Under the pieces are notes generated by a model. That model was not told the origin of the DNA and searched no databases. It saw only the letters and a program-made list of their open reading frames with translations. The position numbers and the translations under genes were made by a program. From the NCBI RefSeq assembly GCF_900129645.1, contig NZ_FSQZ01000001.1, positions 806,001 through 870,000 of the forward strand: a DNA stretch of 64,000 bases, read 5' to 3'. Source of the DNA: Acetomicrobium flavidum. GTDB lineage: Bacteria; Synergistota; Synergistia; Synergistales; Acetomicrobiaceae. Positions 5,202-64,000 of the stretch are shown here, piece after piece (the stretch's first letter is position 1; each line of letters begins with the position of its first letter).

Positions 5202-5657
5202 TCACTGAAGTATAAACTCTTGAAAAAGAGCACTTCTTACAGGAAGGCTGCCCTTAAACGCCGGCAGAATGGCATTTAAGCGCTTGGTTATGTCTTGGGC
5301 CAATGCCATGACTCCGTCGGCAGTGCGAAGATCATCATAATATCTGTCCTTACAGGTTAAAATGACCTCATTTTTCATCTTGCTAATCCATCCCTCGTCG
5401 GAAAACTCCGTGATCAAAGTTGGATCGGCTAACTCTAAAGCCAAATTAAACCTTGCTATATGAGGTTCCTTGTCCGCCAAATTTACGGTAAAGTCACCCA
5501 AATTAAGAATGGCACCGGGCTTTGAGAAATCACCAGAAGTATCATGTATCGGTTGTGGGCTTCCAAAAAACTTCATTCCGAGAAAAACGCCACCACCAAT
5601 GCCAAGGGCTAAACAAACTACTCCTATTATTATAATAAATAAAAACCGTTTTATCAT
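5202..5657 (-). CDS. fliL: FliL, stator-associated membrane protein
   Basis: A 151-residue single-pass protein: N-terminal membrane helix (about 4-27, rich in Ile, Val and Gly) followed by the periplasmic FliL domain with the family pattern (LGDFTVNLAD...IARFNLALELAD) and a C-terminal VRSALFQEFILQ, as in other FliL proteins. FliL rings surround the MotAB stator. It sits between motB and fliM, a common place. Confidence 0.93.
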   Translation of the reverse strand: MIKRFLFIIIIGVVCLALGIGGGVFLGMKFFGSPQPIHDTSGDFSKPGAILNLGDFTVNLADKEPHIARFNLALELADPTLITEFSDEGWISKMKNEVILTCKDRYYDDLRTADGVMALAQDITKRLNAILPAFKGSLPVRSALFQEFILQ

Positions 5658-5695
5658 TATAATTATACCTCACTGATTAAGTAGACTGAACTGCT

Positions 5696-6415
5696 CTAAT
5701 AACCTACATCCGATAATATAACTATATCGACCCTTCTGTTAATTCGCCGATGCTCATCCGTATCGTTTGGAACCAAAGGGTGCGACGATCCGTAGCCAAC
5801 CGTCCGAATCCTTTTGGGGTCAACCCCAACTTCGCTTAAATAGGAACCCACGCTTGCCGCCCTCATAGCGGATAAACCTAAGTTATCCCTGTATGGGCCT
5901 CCTCGTAACGGCACGTTATCCGTGTGGCCCTCAACAGAAATTTGGCTGGGCAATTCCTTGATAATTTGACCAATCTTATATATTAAACGTTTAGCTGATG
6001 GGTAAAGATCGATACTACCAGTTGGAAACAGTATGCCATCCATTATCGAAATCACGATTCCCCTTTCCTCCACACGAACGACGACACCTTCAGTCAATTC
6101 TTCAGCCTCTAGCATTTTTACTATCATCTCATGGATTTTTTGTGCCTTCATAGCATTGAAATATACATCCTTACTGGGGGTAACCGGCTGTTCCCCAACA
6201 GAAACTTCTTCTTCAGGTACTCCGATAACCCCACCCGATAACACTCCTATCGCGCTTTGAAAGGAGTAAATCATTTTTTGGAATTTCTGCACATCGATGC
6301 TGGAAAAGGAGTACAAAAATACGAAAAACGTCAGCAACAATGTCACCATATCGCCGTATGTGGTGAGCCAATTTCCCTTTAATTCAGGTATTTCCTTTCT
6401 TTTTCTCCTGGCCAT
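5696..6415 (-). CDS. motB: MotB, stator protein with peptidoglycan-binding domain
   Basis: MotB anchors the stator to the wall and forms the ion channel with MotA. The 239-residue product has one membrane helix with the ion-carrying aspartate D22 (TTYGDMVTLLLTFF, about 18-31), a plug/linker region, and a C-terminal OmpA-like domain with VEGHTDNVPL and the NRRVDI motif. Residues near D22 do not decide safely between proton and sodium coupling. It follows motA by 17 bases. Confidence 0.95.
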   Translation of the reverse strand: MARRKRKEIPELKGNWLTTYGDMVTLLLTFFVFLYSFSSIDVQKFQKMIYSFQSAIGVLSGGVIGVPEEEVSVGEQPVTPSKDVYFNAMKAQKIHEMIVKMLEAEELTEGVVVRVEERGIVISIMDGILFPTGSIDLYPSAKRLIYKIGQIIKELPSQISVEGHTDNVPLRGGPYRDNLGLSAMRAASVGSYLSEVGVDPKRIRTVGYGSSHPLVPNDTDEHRRINRRVDIVILSDVGY

Positions 6416-6432
6416 TAAAGGCTACACCTGCT

Positions 6433-7212
6433 TCATTCGGTTTCTCTTTTTTTATCCAGTTCATCACGAGCTCTTGGGGGCAGAAATACTTTCAATCTTT
6501 CTTCAACAAGCCTAGGGTTTTCCCCGGCCTGTATAGCCAATATTCCCTCCACTATCATTTCTCTTGTCATTACTTCCTCTTGAGTCCTGACGGTCAATTT
6601 ACGTGCAATGGGGATGCCAAAAACGTTTGCCAGTATCGATCCGTAAAAAGTAGTGATCAGAGCAACCGCCATGCCTGGGCCCAAAGCGTTGGGGTCGTCT
6701 AAATGCCCTAACATCTGTATCAAACCAATGAGGGTACCAAGCATCCCGAAGGCTGGCGACAATTCAGCCAATGTGTCAAACATGAATTTATTGCCGGCAT
6801 GCCTTTCCTCGAGGAGACCTATTTCGGTATCGAGGATCGACTTGACCAACTCAGGATCGGTACCATCCACCACAAGTTGAATGGATTTTCTCATGAAGAG
6901 ATCGTCGAGCTGTTCCGCATCGTCCTCCAGCGATAGGAGCCCTTCGCGCCTTGCTTTTTCCGCAAAACTCACTAGCGTTTGTACTATGGAGATGAGCTCA
7001 GGGCTTTCGGCAAAGAAGGCCTTCTTCAATATTTGTCCCAAGGACAAAACCCGCTTCCAGGGATTGGATAATATGGTTCCGCCAAGAGCTCCTCCAACCA
7101 CTATCAGCACCGAAGGCAAGTTGATGAACGCCATTACATCTCCGCCTGCAACTATCCCCCCGACTACCATTATGCATGCAAGGGCCAACCCGATAAAGCT
7201 GGCAAGATCCAC
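6433..7212 (-). CDS. motA: MotA, stator ion channel protein
   Basis: The 259-residue product has four membrane helices: two at the N-terminus (about 1-50, Gly/Ala/Val-rich) and two around 150-200, with a large cytoplasmic loop between. The conserved prolines are in LSPAFGMLGTLIGL and FGIPIARKL. It begins at a GTG two bases after flbD and is followed by motB, the usual pair. The PomA/MotA choice (Na+ or H+) is not decided here. Confidence 0.95.
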   Translation of the reverse strand: MDLASFIGLALACIMVVGGIVAGGDVMAFINLPSVLIVVGGALGGTILSNPWKRVLSLGQILKKAFFAESPELISIVQTLVSFAEKARREGLLSLEDDAEQLDDLFMRKSIQLVVDGTDPELVKSILDTEIGLLEERHAGNKFMFDTLAELSPAFGMLGTLIGLIQMLGHLDDPNALGPGMAVALITTFYGSILANVFGIPIARKLTVRTQEEVMTREMIVEGILAIQAGENPRLVEERLKVFLPPRARDELDKKRETE

Positions 7213-7214
7213 TG

Positions 7215-7430
7215 TTATGCCTCCTCGTCCATTCTAGCGATGCAATTGCCGCTTGATCTTCTCTTGTAATAAGACACTACCAGGTCTACGACCTGACCTA
7301 CAGGTTCTTCGACCACATATCTATGACCATTCACAAGCGTAATCACCGTGTCGGGAGTTGCCTCAACAGTCTCGATGAGGTCAGCATTAATCACGAACTT
7401 GCTACCCCTAAGCCTTGTGACCTCGATCAA
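7215..7430 (-). CDS. flbD: FlbD/SwrD family small flagellar protein
   Basis: A 71-residue protein starting MIEVTRLRGSKFVINADLIE, the typical FlbD/SwrD beginning, followed by VNGHRYVVEEPVGQVVDLVV. In B. subtilis SwrD raises motor power and lies in the same place between flgE and the motor genes; its mechanism is not settled. The start is a TTG (GAGGGGATG upstream). It sits two bases before motA. Confidence 0.88.
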   Translation of the reverse strand: MIEVTRLRGSKFVINADLIETVEATPDTVITLVNGHRYVVEEPVGQVVDLVVSYYKRRSSGNCIARMDEEA

Positions 7431-7456
7431 AATGTATCACATCCCCTCGCCAAAAA

Positions 7457-9376
7457 CTAGCGCTTCAGGTTTATCAACTCTTCCAACACCTGATCGCTCG
7501 TTGTGATAACCCTTGCATTTGCCTGAAATCCCCTTTGAGCGATGATTAGCTTGGTAAACTCGTCGGCAAGATCGACATTGGACATCTCCAGGTTACCGCC
7601 CGCTAACGTACCGGCACCGCCGCTTCCCGGAGTAACCAGCTGCGGCAAACCAGAGTTGGCAGTAGGGATAAAATTAGTCATCCCCGTCTTCTCTAGGCCT
7701 GCCGGGTTGGGAAAAAGTGCCAGGGCAATTGAATACAAAGCATTTGTCCTACCGTTACTATATACGCCCATTATATTACCGTCGGAGCCTATCGAATAAT
7801 CCTGCAATACGCCCATCGCATAGCCGTCTTGATAGTATGCCTTGGTGGTAAAATCCGAGCCAAATTGGGTAACGCCATCTATTAAGCTCTTTCCCAAAGA
7901 TTCTCCGGAGAAATCAAACTTAACCTGGGAGTCCATGGCACCAACGGAAGAAAATCCTAAATCGACATTAGCCACTCCGCTACCGGTAAGTTTACCATCC
8001 GAATCGAACTTTATCACCCCGGTATTATTGGAAATGGGTATGCCGGGCTCGGAAGGAAACCATGCCCTCCATCGCCATTCGTTAGCTCCTATCTTTTCAA
8101 AGGCAACCTCAACGGTATGGGGGTTACCCAAAGAATCGTAGATATCGATCTTTGTGGTATGAATTGACGAGGTTCGCTGGTTTAAAGTCGAAGCAACTTC
8201 ATATGTAGTCCCATTATCGACGCTGGCCAAAAAGATGAGTCCCTTTCCGTCACCCGTTGCGTTAAGCTTGACATCGACGTTGCCAGCAAATTGATTAGAG
8301 GTTTCGGGAACGATCAGCCCTCCGGCTGGGATTGCAAAGGTACCGTCTGCGTTGACGGGAACATCGACCGAAAAGGAAGACCAATTGTTTGAACTGTCTT
8401 GTCCCCAAAGCGTCATCGCCATGTTCCCGTCGCCCTTATCGGTAAATTCGGCGAGGTAAGTCCTAGTCATATTATCGTTTCCCTTGAACGACAGGGTCGC
8501 GTAATCCATGATGCCGGATATCTGCTGCTTCCATGTCACGTTACTTGATGAATCAAGCAACTGCAGCTCGCCCGTGCCATCATCGAAGTGCAACGTATAA
8601 GTATTGCCTCCCAAGCTTACAGACGCGTCATCAAACACTGGCAATCCTGTCGTCGCGTTTATACCGCTCGGTTTTAATCCAACAGTTTCATTGCCTATTT
8701 TTACAGTCAGCAGGTTGGTACCGCTTGTGTCTTCTGCGATGGAAACGTTATAAGCCGTACCCCCAATTTCGGCGATCGTGGTAAAGTTGGGATTCGTCAG
8801 TCCCATCGGGAGATATGCGGGAACCCTGCTGTCGAGGTTGCACTGCATGCCCAATACCTCGGTGGCCTTCGCGCTTAGCTTCTGGCCGACGGGAATGTTA
8901 AGCGGCACTAGCTGAGTACCCCTAATGTACTGGGACGGGTTATTAGGGTCTACGGTAAGTTGATATCCCATCACAGTATATCCCGTCCCCGACTGGACGA
9001 TGTTGCCGTTTCCGTCCAGGACGAAATTGCCTGCCCTGGAGTAAACGTTACCGCTGCCGTTGTTTAAGACGAAATAACCGTCCCCCTGTATGGCGACGTC
9101 GGTGCGATTTCCCGTATATTGCAAAGGTCCGGCAGAATGAATGGTCTCAACCGCGGCGACCGTCGTGCCAAGCCCTATCTGCATGGGGTTTATCCCGCCG
9201 ATGTCTCCCTGAGGAGCTGTAGCACCTCTGCTTGTCTCGTAAAGCAAGTCTTGAAATGTGACAACTGATTTTTTAAATCCGGCAGTATTTACGTTAGCGA
9301 TATTGTTGCCTATCACATCGAGCATTGTCTGATGGCTTCTAATTCCACTTACACCTGAATTTAAAGATCTAAGCAT
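7457..9376 (-). CDS. flgE: FlgE, flagellar hook protein (long form)
   Basis: The 639-residue product is a rod/hook/filament axial protein: N-terminal MLRSLNSGVSGIRSHQTMLD and NNIANVNTAGFK (about 28-39), a C-terminal axial helix (NVDLADEFTKLIIAQRGFQA, then QVLEELINL), and a large middle part with extra beta domains. At 639 residues it is much longer than B. subtilis FlgE (about 264) and Salmonella FlgE (about 400), so outer hook domains are enlarged. Flagellum-specific export needs no signal peptide and none is present. It is preceded by flgD, its cap protein. Confidence 0.95.
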   Translation of the reverse strand: MLRSLNSGVSGIRSHQTMLDVIGNNIANVNTAGFKKSVVTFQDLLYETSRGATAPQGDIGGINPMQIGLGTTVAAVETIHSAGPLQYTGNRTDVAIQGDGYFVLNNGSGNVYSRAGNFVLDGNGNIVQSGTGYTVMGYQLTVDPNNPSQYIRGTQLVPLNIPVGQKLSAKATEVLGMQCNLDSRVPAYLPMGLTNPNFTTIAEIGGTAYNVSIAEDTSGTNLLTVKIGNETVGLKPSGINATTGLPVFDDASVSLGGNTYTLHFDDGTGELQLLDSSSNVTWKQQISGIMDYATLSFKGNDNMTRTYLAEFTDKGDGNMAMTLWGQDSSNNWSSFSVDVPVNADGTFAIPAGGLIVPETSNQFAGNVDVKLNATGDGKGLIFLASVDNGTTYEVASTLNQRTSSIHTTKIDIYDSLGNPHTVEVAFEKIGANEWRWRAWFPSEPGIPISNNTGVIKFDSDGKLTGSGVANVDLGFSSVGAMDSQVKFDFSGESLGKSLIDGVTQFGSDFTTKAYYQDGYAMGVLQDYSIGSDGNIMGVYSNGRTNALYSIALALFPNPAGLEKTGMTNFIPTANSGLPQLVTPGSGGAGTLAGGNLEMSNVDLADEFTKLIIAQRGFQANARVITTSDQVLEELINLKR

Positions 9377-9867: not shown

Positions 9868-11244
9868 TTACGCTATCCACTGAAGTAATCCACGTTCCAC
9901 ATCAAGCTCAAAAGCCATCTCTCCAAAGATATCTTTTCCGTTTACGGCTTCAAGGCTTTTAGTCTTTTGTCTCCTGTGATTAGACTCACCACGATGCTGA
10001 TCGCGCTCTTCGCCTTGTCCTTTAACGTAAACGTCAAGCCCCAACACCTGAAAACCGCTGGCATTCAAGGTCTGCCTTAGAGAATCCAATTGACCAGTCA
10101 GAAGGTTCGCCACATTACTTCCTTCGACCTTAAAAGCCACTCTCAAACCGCCATCTCGAGCTATGTCTAAATCCACATCTATGTGCCCTAATTCGGGCGG
10201 ATGCACCGTTATCCTGGCAGCATCAACGCCTTCGCGGCGCATCAAACTTATGACAGCGTTGAGCCCTTGTTTTAGCTTGACGCCTTCGTCACTGGTGTAA
10301 TTTTTTAAATATACCGGGGTTGCGTCCTCATTGACAGTCGCAGGGATATCCAAACCCTCGTTTATCCGAAAGGGATGTACGGGGTGACTTCGTAAAGAAG
10401 GATCAACTCCTTCGTTGCTGCTATCCCTGAAGCCACCGATATTTTCGTCTAGATGTTTTTTTGGTGCATATTTCAACAGGCCATCAACGAGGTGTGGCGA
10501 TCCCTTTTGGCCTTTACCAACAAGTCCATCGGGACCGTCAACGGGGCGCGATTCACCCTTCCCAAAACCTTCATCGTCTTTGCCACTTAGATCCGCCGCG
10601 TTCGTCGCTAGGTCCGGCAAATTAATGGTTGGTCCACCTTTGATCACATCTTCGCTGGTATTATTGATCTTTTCTGTGCTTCGATCGTTACTCAAAAAAG
10701 TCAATACAGCTTCGTCTGCACCGATGTCCGCGCCTTTTTGCGAAAGAGGTTCATATCTCGTGGTCACATCACTTGAAGCTTTTTCCGGGACGTTATCCTT
10801 GACGTCATCTTCAATTGCGCCTGCGACTTCCCCCACATCCTCAGGTTTAGATAATCCTAAAATATCCGAATCAAAGCAAACATCACGCTTTGCAAAGCTA
10901 TCCCTAAGATATGATGTATCATGCAACATTAAAAACAGAGCAATCTGTTGATTTAATGCAACAGCCTCAGGGGAGGGATTAGGCTCGCAAGCGCTTAACA
11001 ACTGATCTTTTTCCTTTGCCGAATCAGAGGACTCGCTGGCCGTTTCGCTATCGCCTTCAGGAACAGCCAATAGGGGTGAACTTTCATTCGCCAGCATTTC
11101 TAAAAGTTCATAAAATGGCATGAATTCAAGCAAGGACGACTCAAGAGCGCCTTTGTCATTGGTTGCACAAGCTTCGAAACTAAAGCCACGACTCGCGGGC
11201 TGATTAACCTGCGAAAGACTAAACCCCATGGCATGATCACTCAC
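9868..11244 (-). CDS. fliK: FliK, hook-length control protein
   Basis: The 458-residue product has a long, poorly conserved, polar N-terminal region (about 1-330), as expected of a hook-length ruler, and the conserved FliK C-terminal domain (about 340-425: ARITVHPPELGHIDVDLDI and LTGQLDSLRQTLNASGF). FliK measures hook length and triggers the FlhB switch. It starts at GTG and overlaps the MotE-like gene upstream by four bases. A 178-residue open frame on the other strand inside it has no support. Confidence 0.9.
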   Translation of the reverse strand: MSDHAMGFSLSQVNQPASRGFSFEACATNDKGALESSLLEFMPFYELLEMLANESSPLLAVPEGDSETASESSDSAKEKDQLLSACEPNPSPEAVALNQQIALFLMLHDTSYLRDSFAKRDVCFDSDILGLSKPEDVGEVAGAIEDDVKDNVPEKASSDVTTRYEPLSQKGADIGADEAVLTFLSNDRSTEKINNTSEDVIKGGPTINLPDLATNAADLSGKDDEGFGKGESRPVDGPDGLVGKGQKGSPHLVDGLLKYAPKKHLDENIGGFRDSSNEGVDPSLRSHPVHPFRINEGLDIPATVNEDATPVYLKNYTSDEGVKLKQGLNAVISLMRREGVDAARITVHPPELGHIDVDLDIARDGGLRVAFKVEGSNVANLLTGQLDSLRQTLNASGFQVLGLDVYVKGQGEERDQHRGESNHRRQKTKSLEAVNGKDIFGEMAFELDVERGLLQWIA

Positions 11245-61365: not shown

Positions 61366-61585
61366 ACCTTTTGCCCCCTGACGCACAAAGTAAGACACAA
61401 CGAACCCCGACATCCACTAGGTTGGCAATAAATACCCTACATGCCGCTGTATATTATCATGCATATATTTTACAAGTCAAGCGGAGTCGGGCCTTGTCCT
61501 GGCTTAAGTCATATTGGCAGGCAACGTTCGTAACAATGCCCCTTGCCATTTAGGGCAAGGGGCATTGTTAAACACCGCTAAAAAC
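61366..61585. other. Gap between tRNA-Trp and secE
   Basis: No gene is seen. The gap holds a 17-pair hairpin (61531-61570) and, nearer secE, AT-rich sequence where a promoter for the secE-nusG-rpl operon could lie, though I find no clear pair of boxes. Confidence 0.6.
61531..61570. repeat. 17-base-pair perfect hairpin after tRNA-Trp
   Basis: TAACAATGCCCCTTGCC (61531-61547) and its exact reverse complement (61554-61570) with a six-base loop. It begins 15 bases after the tRNA-Trp CCA. There is no T run on either strand, so it is not a standard terminator; it may be an RNase-resistant or processing structure. Confidence 0.75.
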
Positions 61586-61662
61586 TGGCAGGCCCGGCAG
61601 GATTCGAACCTGCAACCCCCGGATTTGGAGTCCGGTGCTCTGCCCAGTTGAGCTACTAAACT
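61586..61662 (-). tRNA. tRNA-Trp (anticodon CCA) with damaged acceptor stem
   Basis: D arm, anticodon arm (CCGGA/TCCGG, loop CTCCAAA), T arm (GCAGG/CCTGC), discriminator G and encoded CCA are all sound. The acceptor is not: the 5' strand reads AGTTTAG while the 3' strand is CGGGCCT, whose partner should be AGGCCCG. Pairs 3 and 6 are mismatched and 4 and 5 are G-T. The fault is only on the 5' side, where the integrated element begins. This is the standard tRNA-Trp locus before secE, so the gene is a hybrid or a remnant. Confidence 0.85.
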
Positions 61663-61780
61663 TTAAATATAGCATATATGCATGTTTATGTTCAATAGCT
61701 CTTAGCCAAAATCGCATAAAAAACCGTGGTGTCCGAAGCTCCTAAATTGCAACTTTTATTGGAAACTGCAAGGCGAAGTT

Positions 61781-62728
61781 ATGCATCAAACAAGTCGAGT
61801 AGTTTTGTTTAGAGAGGTTTTTCCTTCATGGGAAGAGGCATTGGAAGCCTTTATATTTTTGAAGAAGGCCAACGGGATTTCGCCCCGCACCATAAAGGAT
61901 TACCGCTACCATGTGGCCTTATTTTTTAGCGAATGCCCGCAGGCCTGGGACCCTCAAGACGCAAACAAGACGAGAATGGCCGTTTTGTCCTTCCTCGGTC
62001 AAGATGACATCGCACCAGCTACGTTTAACATAAGATTGAGGTACCTCAAATCCTTCTTTTCCTGGCTGGTAAATGAAGGAGCTTACACAGGAAACCCGCT
62101 TGAAGGAATAAAAACCAGAAAGGCCGAGCCAAGAATCGTGCAGCATTCGGCGGAAGTATTGACGAAGCTCTTAAAGCTACCAGACAAGACAACTTACTGT
62201 GGAAAGCGGGACTACGCCTTGCTGTGCCTTTCAATAGACACGGCCATTAGGCCTAGCGAAGCTTTGGCCTTGGAGCTTGACGACGTCAACTTAAAAGAAA
62301 TGGTTGTGCTAATCAGAGCATCAATCGCAAAGACAAGAAAAAGCAGGACATTGCCCTTCTCTCTGGAGACGGCCAAGGCGTTGCAGGCGTTAATCGCCTC
62401 CAGGCCAAGGGAATGGGAAACTACCCTGCTTTTTGCCAATTACGAAGGAGACAGGCTGACCGTCTCTGGCTGGAGACAGAGATTACAGAAAAACTATGCA
62501 CCTAAACTTGGCCTAAAAAGGCTTTCTCCTTACGATTTGCGACATGACGCAGCCCTTCATTTTCTTAGAAACGGCATGCACCCCTTTGCGTTGCAAACAA
62601 TCATGGGACACACCACGCTTGACATGACGAAGCGTTATATAGCTCTTGCCGAGTCCGACATAAGAGAGGCCCACGAGACGGCATCGCCTATAAAAAAGTT
62701 CATAGGCAATAAAAAACGAGTCAGGTAA
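61781..62728 (+). CDS. Tyrosine recombinase (integrase of an element in tRNA-Trp)
   Basis: The 315-residue product has a SAM-like N-terminal domain (about 15-110) and a catalytic domain with R157 (IDTAIRPSEALALEL), Lys near 184-187, R254 and H277 (LQTIMGHTTLDMTKRY) and the Tyr nucleophile Y286. The first His of the HxxR motif is Tyr (Y251 in LSPYDLRHDAA), a change known in other integrases. It is not the chromosomal XerC (21930-22823). It starts 118 bases from the damaged tRNA-Trp and points away from it. AAGG lies before the ATG. Confidence 0.92.
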   Translation: MHQTSRVVLFREVFPSWEEALEAFIFLKKANGISPRTIKDYRYHVALFFSECPQAWDPQDANKTRMAVLSFLGQDDIAPATFNIRLRYLKSFFSWLVNEGAYTGNPLEGIKTRKAEPRIVQHSAEVLTKLLKLPDKTTYCGKRDYALLCLSIDTAIRPSEALALELDDVNLKEMVVLIRASIAKTRKSRTLPFSLETAKALQALIASRPREWETTLLFANYEGDRLTVSGWRQRLQKNYAPKLGLKRLSPYDLRHDAALHFLRNGMHPFALQTIMGHTTLDMTKRYIALAESDIREAHETASPIKKFIGNKKRVR

Positions 62729-62749: not shown

Positions 62750-62959
62750 ATGACAGCTAGGGAATTTCTTATGTGGTCGGGGTATGAAGGGGATTTCGAA
62801 GTTGGTTTGTATTTATTGGGCCAATACTTGGGAAGGGGTAATTTTTTTGTGCAGTACCCCGACGCCGACGTGGAGACGGAGGAAGGCATCCCCTTAGAAA
62901 CATTACCCGACGAACCCGCTAATTTCCAAGAATTCATGGACCGCCACTGCGAAGATTAA
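62750..62959 (+). CDS. Very acidic small protein of the element
   Basis: A 69-residue protein behind a strong SD (GGAGG, eight bases before ATG), 21 bases after the integrase and probably on its message. It holds about 16 Asp/Glu against 3 Arg and no Lys, with aromatic residues in the first half (YEGDFEVGLYLLGQYLGRGN) and an acidic second half. No family recognised. Excisionases are usually basic, so this is unlikely to be one; an anti-defence or DNA-mimic role is a guess. Confidence 0.7.
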   Translation: MTAREFLMWSGYEGDFEVGLYLLGQYLGRGNFFVQYPDADVETEEGIPLETLPDEPANFQEFMDRHCED

Positions 62960-63015: not shown

Positions 63016-63522
63016 TTATACCTCCCCGTGAAACTTGTAATTACTCATGTCGCTTAAGGCCTCCTTTACGGCGTCGGTAAGGATGTCGCAGATTTCGGCA
63101 GGATTTTTTATGCCGACGAGCTTTGAGGGCGTCTCGTCAGCAATGGCCAAGGTCCTCTTTCTGAAGTATGACATCATGTCGTTCATCACCACTTCTACGG
63201 CCTTGGCATCGTGGAGCTTGTTGTCCAGTTGCTCAAGTTTTAGTTCGCTCATTTGACGCAACGCTCGTTCGTGTTTGGCCTTTTCCGACCAATACAACAC
63301 TTTGTCGCTCCCCTTCTCACTTTTCAACAAGTATTGCAGGTATTTTTGAATATTTTCAGCTAACGGAAATTGCGAAGGGCCTTCTTTGACCAATATTCCT
63401 TGCTTGGCCAATAAATAAATATATTGCGTAGTGCAGGCCAACAAGTTGGCAAGCTCTTGGGCGTTGACCATGCGAGTTTTTAGCTCTTGAATGTCGTTTA
63501 TGAATTCTTGCTCTTCTTTCAC
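63016..63522 (-). CDS. Nu1-like phage terminase small subunit
   Basis: The 168-residue product has an N-terminal MerR/Nu1-like helix-turn-helix (VNAQELANLLACTTQYIYLL, about 19-38, then GILVKEGPSQFPL) and a helical second part (SEKAKHERALRQMSELKLEQ, MNDMMSYFRKRTLAIADETP) typical of small terminase subunits of the Nu1/DUF1441 type, which choose phage DNA for packaging. No large subunit follows; the gene ends at a terminator. GTG start with GGAGG 11 bases upstream. Confidence 0.75.
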   Translation of the reverse strand: MKEEQEFINDIQELKTRMVNAQELANLLACTTQYIYLLAKQGILVKEGPSQFPLAENIQKYLQYLLKSEKGSDKVLYWSEKAKHERALRQMSELKLEQLDNKLHDAKAVEVVMNDMMSYFRKRTLAIADETPSKLVGIKNPAEICDILTDAVKEALSDMSNYKFHGEV

Positions 63523-63675: not shown

Positions 63676-63813
63676 CTATGTTCTCGCCTCTTGGCCGTCA
63701 TTGTTTACCCACAAACGGCAAGCTTTGCAAAGCGTGAGTGTATGCGGTAATGGTTGCTTTGGCCCTAAATCCCGTCCGCACTTAGGACAGATTATTCTTT
63801 CGTCATTGCTCAT
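63676..63813 (-). CDS. Small zinc-ribbon protein of the element
   Basis: A 45-residue gene behind a strong SD (AAAGGAGG). The product MSNDERIICPKCGRDLGPKQ continues to a second pair, CKACRLW; C9, C12, C29 and C32 form a likely Cys4 zinc site. Such small zinc-finger proteins are common in phage early or late-control regions; the role here is unknown. It precedes the terminase-like gene on the same strand by 153 bases. Confidence 0.7.
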   Translation of the reverse strand: MSNDERIICPKCGRDLGPKQPLPHTLTLCKACRLWVNNDGQEART

Positions 63814-64000
63814 CTATGCTCCTCCTTTCGCCTACAAGGCCATTTATAGGCCCTACAAGGCATCAAACTTGTTTTGCAGGTATAAAACACTTACCCCACG
63901 TTTTCAAATTGAATATAGGGCATCCTAGAGCGTCAAAAAGGGACTGCAAATTTCAAGAATGCGGTCTCTCCAACGAAAGGCGGTCCTAACGCCTATGCAT
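63814..64000. other. Non-coding or partial region at the window end
   Basis: No gene is supported here. On the minus strand there is a promoter candidate (63879-63907) and the decamer GCCTTGTAGG appears twice about 23 bases apart just before the zinc-ribbon SD. The element continues past the window. Confidence 0.5.
63879..63907 (-). promoter_or_regulatory. Promoter candidate for the zinc-ribbon/terminase operon
   Basis: TTGAAA (complement of 63902-63907), 17 bases, TATACC (complement of 63879-63884), about 65 bases before the zinc-ribbon ATG. Confidence 0.45.

Follow-up and report, generated by a model that had tools for sequence, protein, structure and literature searches.

The only tRNA-Trp gene of Acetomicrobium flavidum has very probably been entered by a mobile element of ~5.6 kb with the gene content of a phage satellite, leaving a rebuilt gene at the far end of the element and a displaced copy beside the integrase. 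The displaced copy lies in the window (the whole stretch of 64,000 nucleotides that was analysed, C1:806001-870000 of the 2.02-Mb genome), and the far end of the element lies outside it.

The two tRNA-Trp copies and the uninterrupted site

The window copy (61586..61662, minus strand) reads from 61662 to 61586 as AGTTTAG-TAGCTCAACTGGGCAGAGCA-CCGGACTCCAAATCCGG-...-CGGGCCT-GCCA and consists of an element-derived 5' part (AGTTTAG and D-arm) fused to a host 3' part. This is the hybrid that the original prediction had described, with AGTTTAG (61656..61662, minus strand) in place of the acceptor 5' strand and an integrase gene starting beyond the 5' end of the tRNA (ATG at 61781, 119 bp away). An intact tRNA-Trp, with the acceptor AGGTCCG/CGGGCCT, was found in the same orientation at C1:873221-873297, with rpmG, tuf, tRNA-Thr and tRNA-Tyr upstream of it. 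The two copies are separated by 5.56 kb and have 59 consecutive identical bases in common (tRNA positions 19-77), ending exactly at the CCA, immediately past which their flanks diverge; the 59 identical bases rule out a chance likeness and bear out the proposed integration at tRNA-Trp. A tRNA census of the genome (Rfam hits plus ARAGORN on genome stretches) gave 47 tRNAs with the far copy as the single intact tRNA-Trp, which rules out several tRNA-Trp genes, and the repaired copy that had been named as one possibility for the far end of the element was found there by the genome search that had been proposed.

At tRNA positions 8-18 the two copies differ, the window copy having TAGCTCAACTGGG and the far copy TAGCTCTAATTGG, which is one change from the TAGCTCGAATTGG of native tRNA-Trp in the same genus. 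Same-genus tRNA-Trp genes have a near-identical D-arm and the AGGTCCG 5' strand of the far copy, and the native strand is AGGTCCG, with G-U at 4:69, rather than the AGGCCCG that had been called for. A genus-mate with no integrase of the element's family (G001, L056) provides the uninterrupted site, with one intact tRNA-Trp 690 bp before secE. AGTTTAG in integrase-free relatives, which had been named as evidence against an insertion, is not what these genes carry.

We propose that the tyrosine integrase of the element placed the ~5.6 kb within the cell's single tRNA-Trp gene, which lies between rpmG and secE, by strand exchange inside tRNA positions 19-77, with the anticodon arm as the likeliest spot. 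The far end would thereby have received the host 5' part joined to a 3' part and terminator borne by the element, giving a working tRNA-Trp; at the integrase end, a 5'-truncated tRNA borne by the element, in which AGTTTAG stands just behind an outward promoter-like sequence, would have been joined to the original 3' part of the host gene, giving the displaced window copy. The far copy has a host 5' half in its host upstream context, followed by an element-borne 3' half and terminator (CCGACGGCC-TTCTT-GGCCTGTCGG-GATTTTTTTT), and therefore represents the usual mode of repair; the unusual entry from the 5' side that had been predicted is not supported for this element.

Among the islands recorded by Islander, 3760/3919 have a 3' tDNA fragment and 159/3919 a 5' fragment (PMC4383910), and the displaced piece of the Trp element holds the 3' end, as in the larger group. 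The locus resembles these islands in its tyrosine integrase, its tRNA target and its intact gene at one end with a displaced copy at the other (PMC4383910), the integrase lying by the att copy and the two tRNA copies having the same orientation. It is unlike them in that the displaced copy is nearly full length, with a 5' part of its own and a promoter-like sequence. Like architecture was found at tRNA-Ser (G131) and tRNA-Gly (G006). The Trp insertion is ordinary, and the copy that it left in the window is a genuine att remnant of a familiar sort.

The terminal motif of the element was also seen to follow tRNA-Trp, with no integrase, in G005, G003 and G002 (L044, L045, L055), where ~2.5 kb between tRNA-Trp and secE contain an ORF that we take to be phosphoglycerate-mutase-like. 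These loci are possibly an old element minus its integrase.

Origin of AGTTTAG and state of the window copy

Had an insertion from the 5' side broken the original tRNA, AGTTTAG would be host damage, and the altered strand does face the integrase; however, it is the far copy that holds the host 5' part and the host upstream genes, and the native tRNA-Trp genes of genus-mates contradict such damage, which is highly improbable. AGTTTAG is also found in another species, where the element sits at a different tRNA: this is a sibling at tRNA-His in G002 (L053) with an 80% identical integrase, whose integrase-side copy starts AGTTTAGTAGCTCAA and has 3/7 acceptor pairs in the frame tested. Because this tRNA-His element has AGTTTAG too and native genes differ, AGTTTAG is, on these comparisons, element sequence and not host damage. 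The same motif was also observed right after the CCA at the far ends of L048, L047, L043 and L059 (CCA-AGTTTAGTTCCCGAC).

An outward extended -10 promoter-like sequence (TTGAAC-N18-TATATT, with TGC before the -10; 61666..61695, minus strand) points at the tRNA copy, and five related ends look alike. At the Trp and His near ends AGTTTAG begins 3-4 bases behind TTGAAC-N18-TATATT or TTGATT-N18-TACTGT, and in the Arg and Gly siblings the same promoter-like pattern stands 14-16 bases ahead of the tRNA. The simplest reading is that an old deletion of ~11-12 bases would have taken the leader and acceptor strand from the element's tRNA copy. The fixed pattern TTGN3-N15-TGN-TAN3T was present at the same place in all five near ends of the clade and appeared in 2-15/2000 trials each with shuffled single ends, figures that are support and not proof, as the pattern was picked after looking and the five ends are related. 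When each end was scored for promoters in free form, the signal was weak (shuffle P about 0.05-0.4, one region being wrongly bounded), which leaves the fixed pattern of the five ends as the one convincing result. A literature search for element-borne promoters at tRNA att sites gave nothing relevant.

The window copy is probably a dead remnant rather than a working tRNA. It could instead be a variant tRNA-Trp that still works, with transcription from the outward promoter of the element and a weak acceptor that is tolerated, so that the cell would have two tRNA-Trp genes. Such a variant would fit the promoter-like sequence just upstream, the retention of A1-U72, G2-C71 and the CCA anticodon, and the complete integrase-side copies in sibling elements; the Rfam tRNA model score (55.8 bits vs 63.8 bits for the intact copy) and the acceptor pairs kept (5/7, counting G-U) also leave room for weak function. 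It is nevertheless unlikely, as the acceptor (in order A-U, G-C, mismatch, U-G, U-G, mismatch, G-C) has two mismatches and two G-U pairs, the predicted start point lies inside the acceptor strand and would leave no 5' leader, the same lesion is present in the tRNA-His sibling, and the copy was not called by ARAGORN, which finds seven other tRNAs in the window.

Between the remnant and secE lies a strong hairpin without a T run (61531-61570, AACAATGCCCCTTGCC...GGCAAGGGGCATTGTT). A secE promoter-like sequence (TTGACT-N18-TAATAT; 61451..61480, minus strand) is conserved in element-free G001 and in G005, which suggests that secE-nusG may be independent of the element's promoter; reliance on that promoter is not needed, the secE sequence being kept with or without the element.

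Gene content of the element

The tyrosine integrase (315 aa; 61781..62728, plus strand) matches Pfam PF00589 (6.7e-29) and phrog_1 (1.9e-44), and the integrases closest to it are in Acetomicrobium sp. UBA3949. It is followed by a small ORF of 69 aa with no family match (62750..62959, plus strand), a terminase small subunit-like protein (TerS) of 168 aa (63016..63522, minus strand; phrog_57, 2.3e-22) and a small zinc-ribbon-like ORF of 45 aa (63676..63813, minus strand) with a relative in the sibling element L052. The remainder of the element starts at 63925..64000 (minus strand, locus L009), where it is cut by the window end, and past 63925 encodes, in order, a late-regulator-like protein (phrog_36, 1.8e-21), a DnaD-like protein (phrog_1701, 2.2e-9), a 118-aa ORF, a Cro-like HTH protein (HTH_26, 3.9e-6) and a 300-aa ORF with a weak zinc-ribbon match, beyond which come a terminator, an arm site and then the intact tRNA-Trp. 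A putative integrase arm-type site, GCAATTTAGGAGCTTCGGAC (61731..61752, minus strand), recurs at the far end as the direct repeat GCAAATTTAGGAGCGTCGGAC. A scan of nine element ORFs gave neither structural nor lytic phage genes, and Phage_capsid PF05065 had no match in the whole genome. The Arg sibling element has Cro, primase, helicase, two TerS and a late regulator, and primase-helicase or DnaB/initiator genes occur in other relatives, whose scanned ORFs included no structural genes.

These elements are like PICIs (PMC6092414) and PICMIs (PMC10803314) in having an integrase at one end, a regulator, replication genes, TerS in some and no structural genes, and the integrase and replication module of the Trp element are accompanied by a Cro-like protein that is assumed to be the master regulator. 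PICIs are typically 12-15 kb in size (PMC6092414), unlike the ~5.6 kb of this element, whose siblings measure 6-12 kb. The gene content suggests a phage satellite, and the element is described as satellite-like but not filed as a PICI, in part because the distance between its tRNA copies is below the 12-15 kb range. We suggest that it may be packaged through its own TerS. Neither a helper phage nor an attP or excised circle was observed. Synergistota and phage satellites were not named together in the papers searched.

A decayed prophage, with early genes and terS left and everything from terL onward lost, would also account for the order Cro, DnaD, late regulator, TerS, which matches the early-to-late order of phages. 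This origin is possible but doubtful, as the genes of the element are intact and compact, and a sibling in another species has equivalent genes (integrase, Cro, replication, late regulator, TerS) whose sequences have diverged, primase-helicase being present instead of DnaD. Relatives of 6-12 kb with replication genes also recur across families, with no structural genes in the ORFs scanned, and a satellite-like element remains the reading we prefer.

Repair sides within one integrase family

The integrase is present in 21/188 Synergistota genomes at E<=1e-50, and ~20 loci have a tRNA, usually complete, at a distance of 80-270 bp from the integrase start and pointing away from the integrase. Repair sides were compared at loci where both ends could be read. 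Repair on the 3' side was found for Trp (identity block at tRNA positions 19-77), Ser in G131 (21-89) and Gly in G006 (3-77, the near copy having two changed bases at its 5' end), and repair on the 5' side for Gly in G052 (-84 to 48), Arg in G053 (-27 to 46), Val in G011 (-69 to 53) and SeC in G047 (-74 to 64). These Gly (G052), Arg, Val and SeC insertions have a whole near copy and a far copy that breaks off on its 3' side, and their blocks take in the promoter region; for Gln in G125 both copies are full (block -4 to 78). The predicted 5'-side mode is thus not supported for the Trp element and holds for several of its relatives. Positions 21-46, the anticodon arm, are common to every block, which suggests one crossover place, with attP sites that would vary in how much tRNA is carried on either side. 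In the integrase tree, repair side was not sorted into clades beyond chance.

At the G002 Arg site the near copy (contig C9) is whole and the far copy (contig C74) leaves tRNA-Arg at about position 52, and G003 has a single native tRNA-Arg gene with the same promoter as this site; C9 and C74, separate contigs with different terminal sequences, may represent two tandem elements. In G011, the near tRNA-Val heads the cluster Val-Asp-Phe-Gly-Cys-Asn, which would be read from element-side DNA if the near Val is element-promoted.

Several other loci look like relatives or fossils of such elements. A second element in the A. flavidum genome (L042, G000:C1:1888000-1902000, 5406-9330; integrase 72% identical) has only a 3' tRNA-Lys fragment at its far end and no tRNA at its integrase end, and both ends look decayed. 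In L058 (G001:C100, 900-1250) two tRNA-Gly(CCC) copies lie ~150 bp apart with a terminator, an arm-type site and an outward promoter between them, possibly an element collapsed to its ends by recombination between directly repeated arm sites. A chimeric tRNA beside a truncated integrase (L043, G005:C1:1662000-1677000, 11106-11182) has the first two thirds of tRNA-Arg(CCT) and the last third of tRNA-Gly(CCC), which suggests a target switch or later T-arm recombination and does not fit an anticodon-only crossover. Short stretches like the integrase C-terminus, opposite in orientation to the full integrase, were seen near the far ends of L042 (8748-8963, minus strand), L048 (15030-15167, minus strand) and L043 (7329-7525, plus strand). 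In the tRNA-Gly(TCC) element of L048 (G006:C336, 11517-14047), two radical SAM genes lie side by side and look like cargo. Upstream of the native tRNA-Arg(CCT) of A. flavidum at G000:C1:191022-191095 (L113, L134), the sequence can be aligned with the near end of the element at Arg and includes an arm-type site that has degenerated; it may be a fossil insertion with its promoter kept.

Displacement on the 5' side is already known but rare (PMC4383910), and relatives of the Trp element either displace 5' fragments, as do 159/3919 Islander islands, or keep two full copies, which would be filtered out there since hits inside full-length tRNA genes are discarded (PMC4383910). In the tRNA-dependent lysogeny of actinobacteriophages (Guerrero-Bustamante and Hatfull 2024, PMC10865867), attP and attB share only ~10 bp, and the loss of the host tRNA, which is not rebuilt, is made good by a separate tRNA gene of the phage. 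In both systems the host survives the insertion into its tRNA gene through tRNA sequence that the mobile element brings; in the elements described here the tRNA is rebuilt at the att junction.

We put at about even the chances that attP in this family carries a tRNA gene complete with promoter and CCA, or a decaying form of such a gene, such that insertion doubles the tRNA and the surviving copy may be either the far one, with a host promoter and an element 3' half, or the near one, with an element promoter and a host 3' half; in the near case a satellite would promote essential host tRNAs, as in G011. A promoter-bearing, sometimes complete tRNA in attP, together with repair on either side within one integrase family, would be a modest new variant. 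Closely related integrases use opposite repair sides and appear to carry a promoter and 5' tRNA sequence and, if this is true, such elements could insert at the head of a tRNA operon while the genes downstream stay active, and expression of essential tRNAs would pass to a mobile element. Elements with two full copies would be dropped by finders of the Islander type, and insertions of this kind may be undercounted. The set of elements described here points to phage-satellite-like elements in Synergistota.
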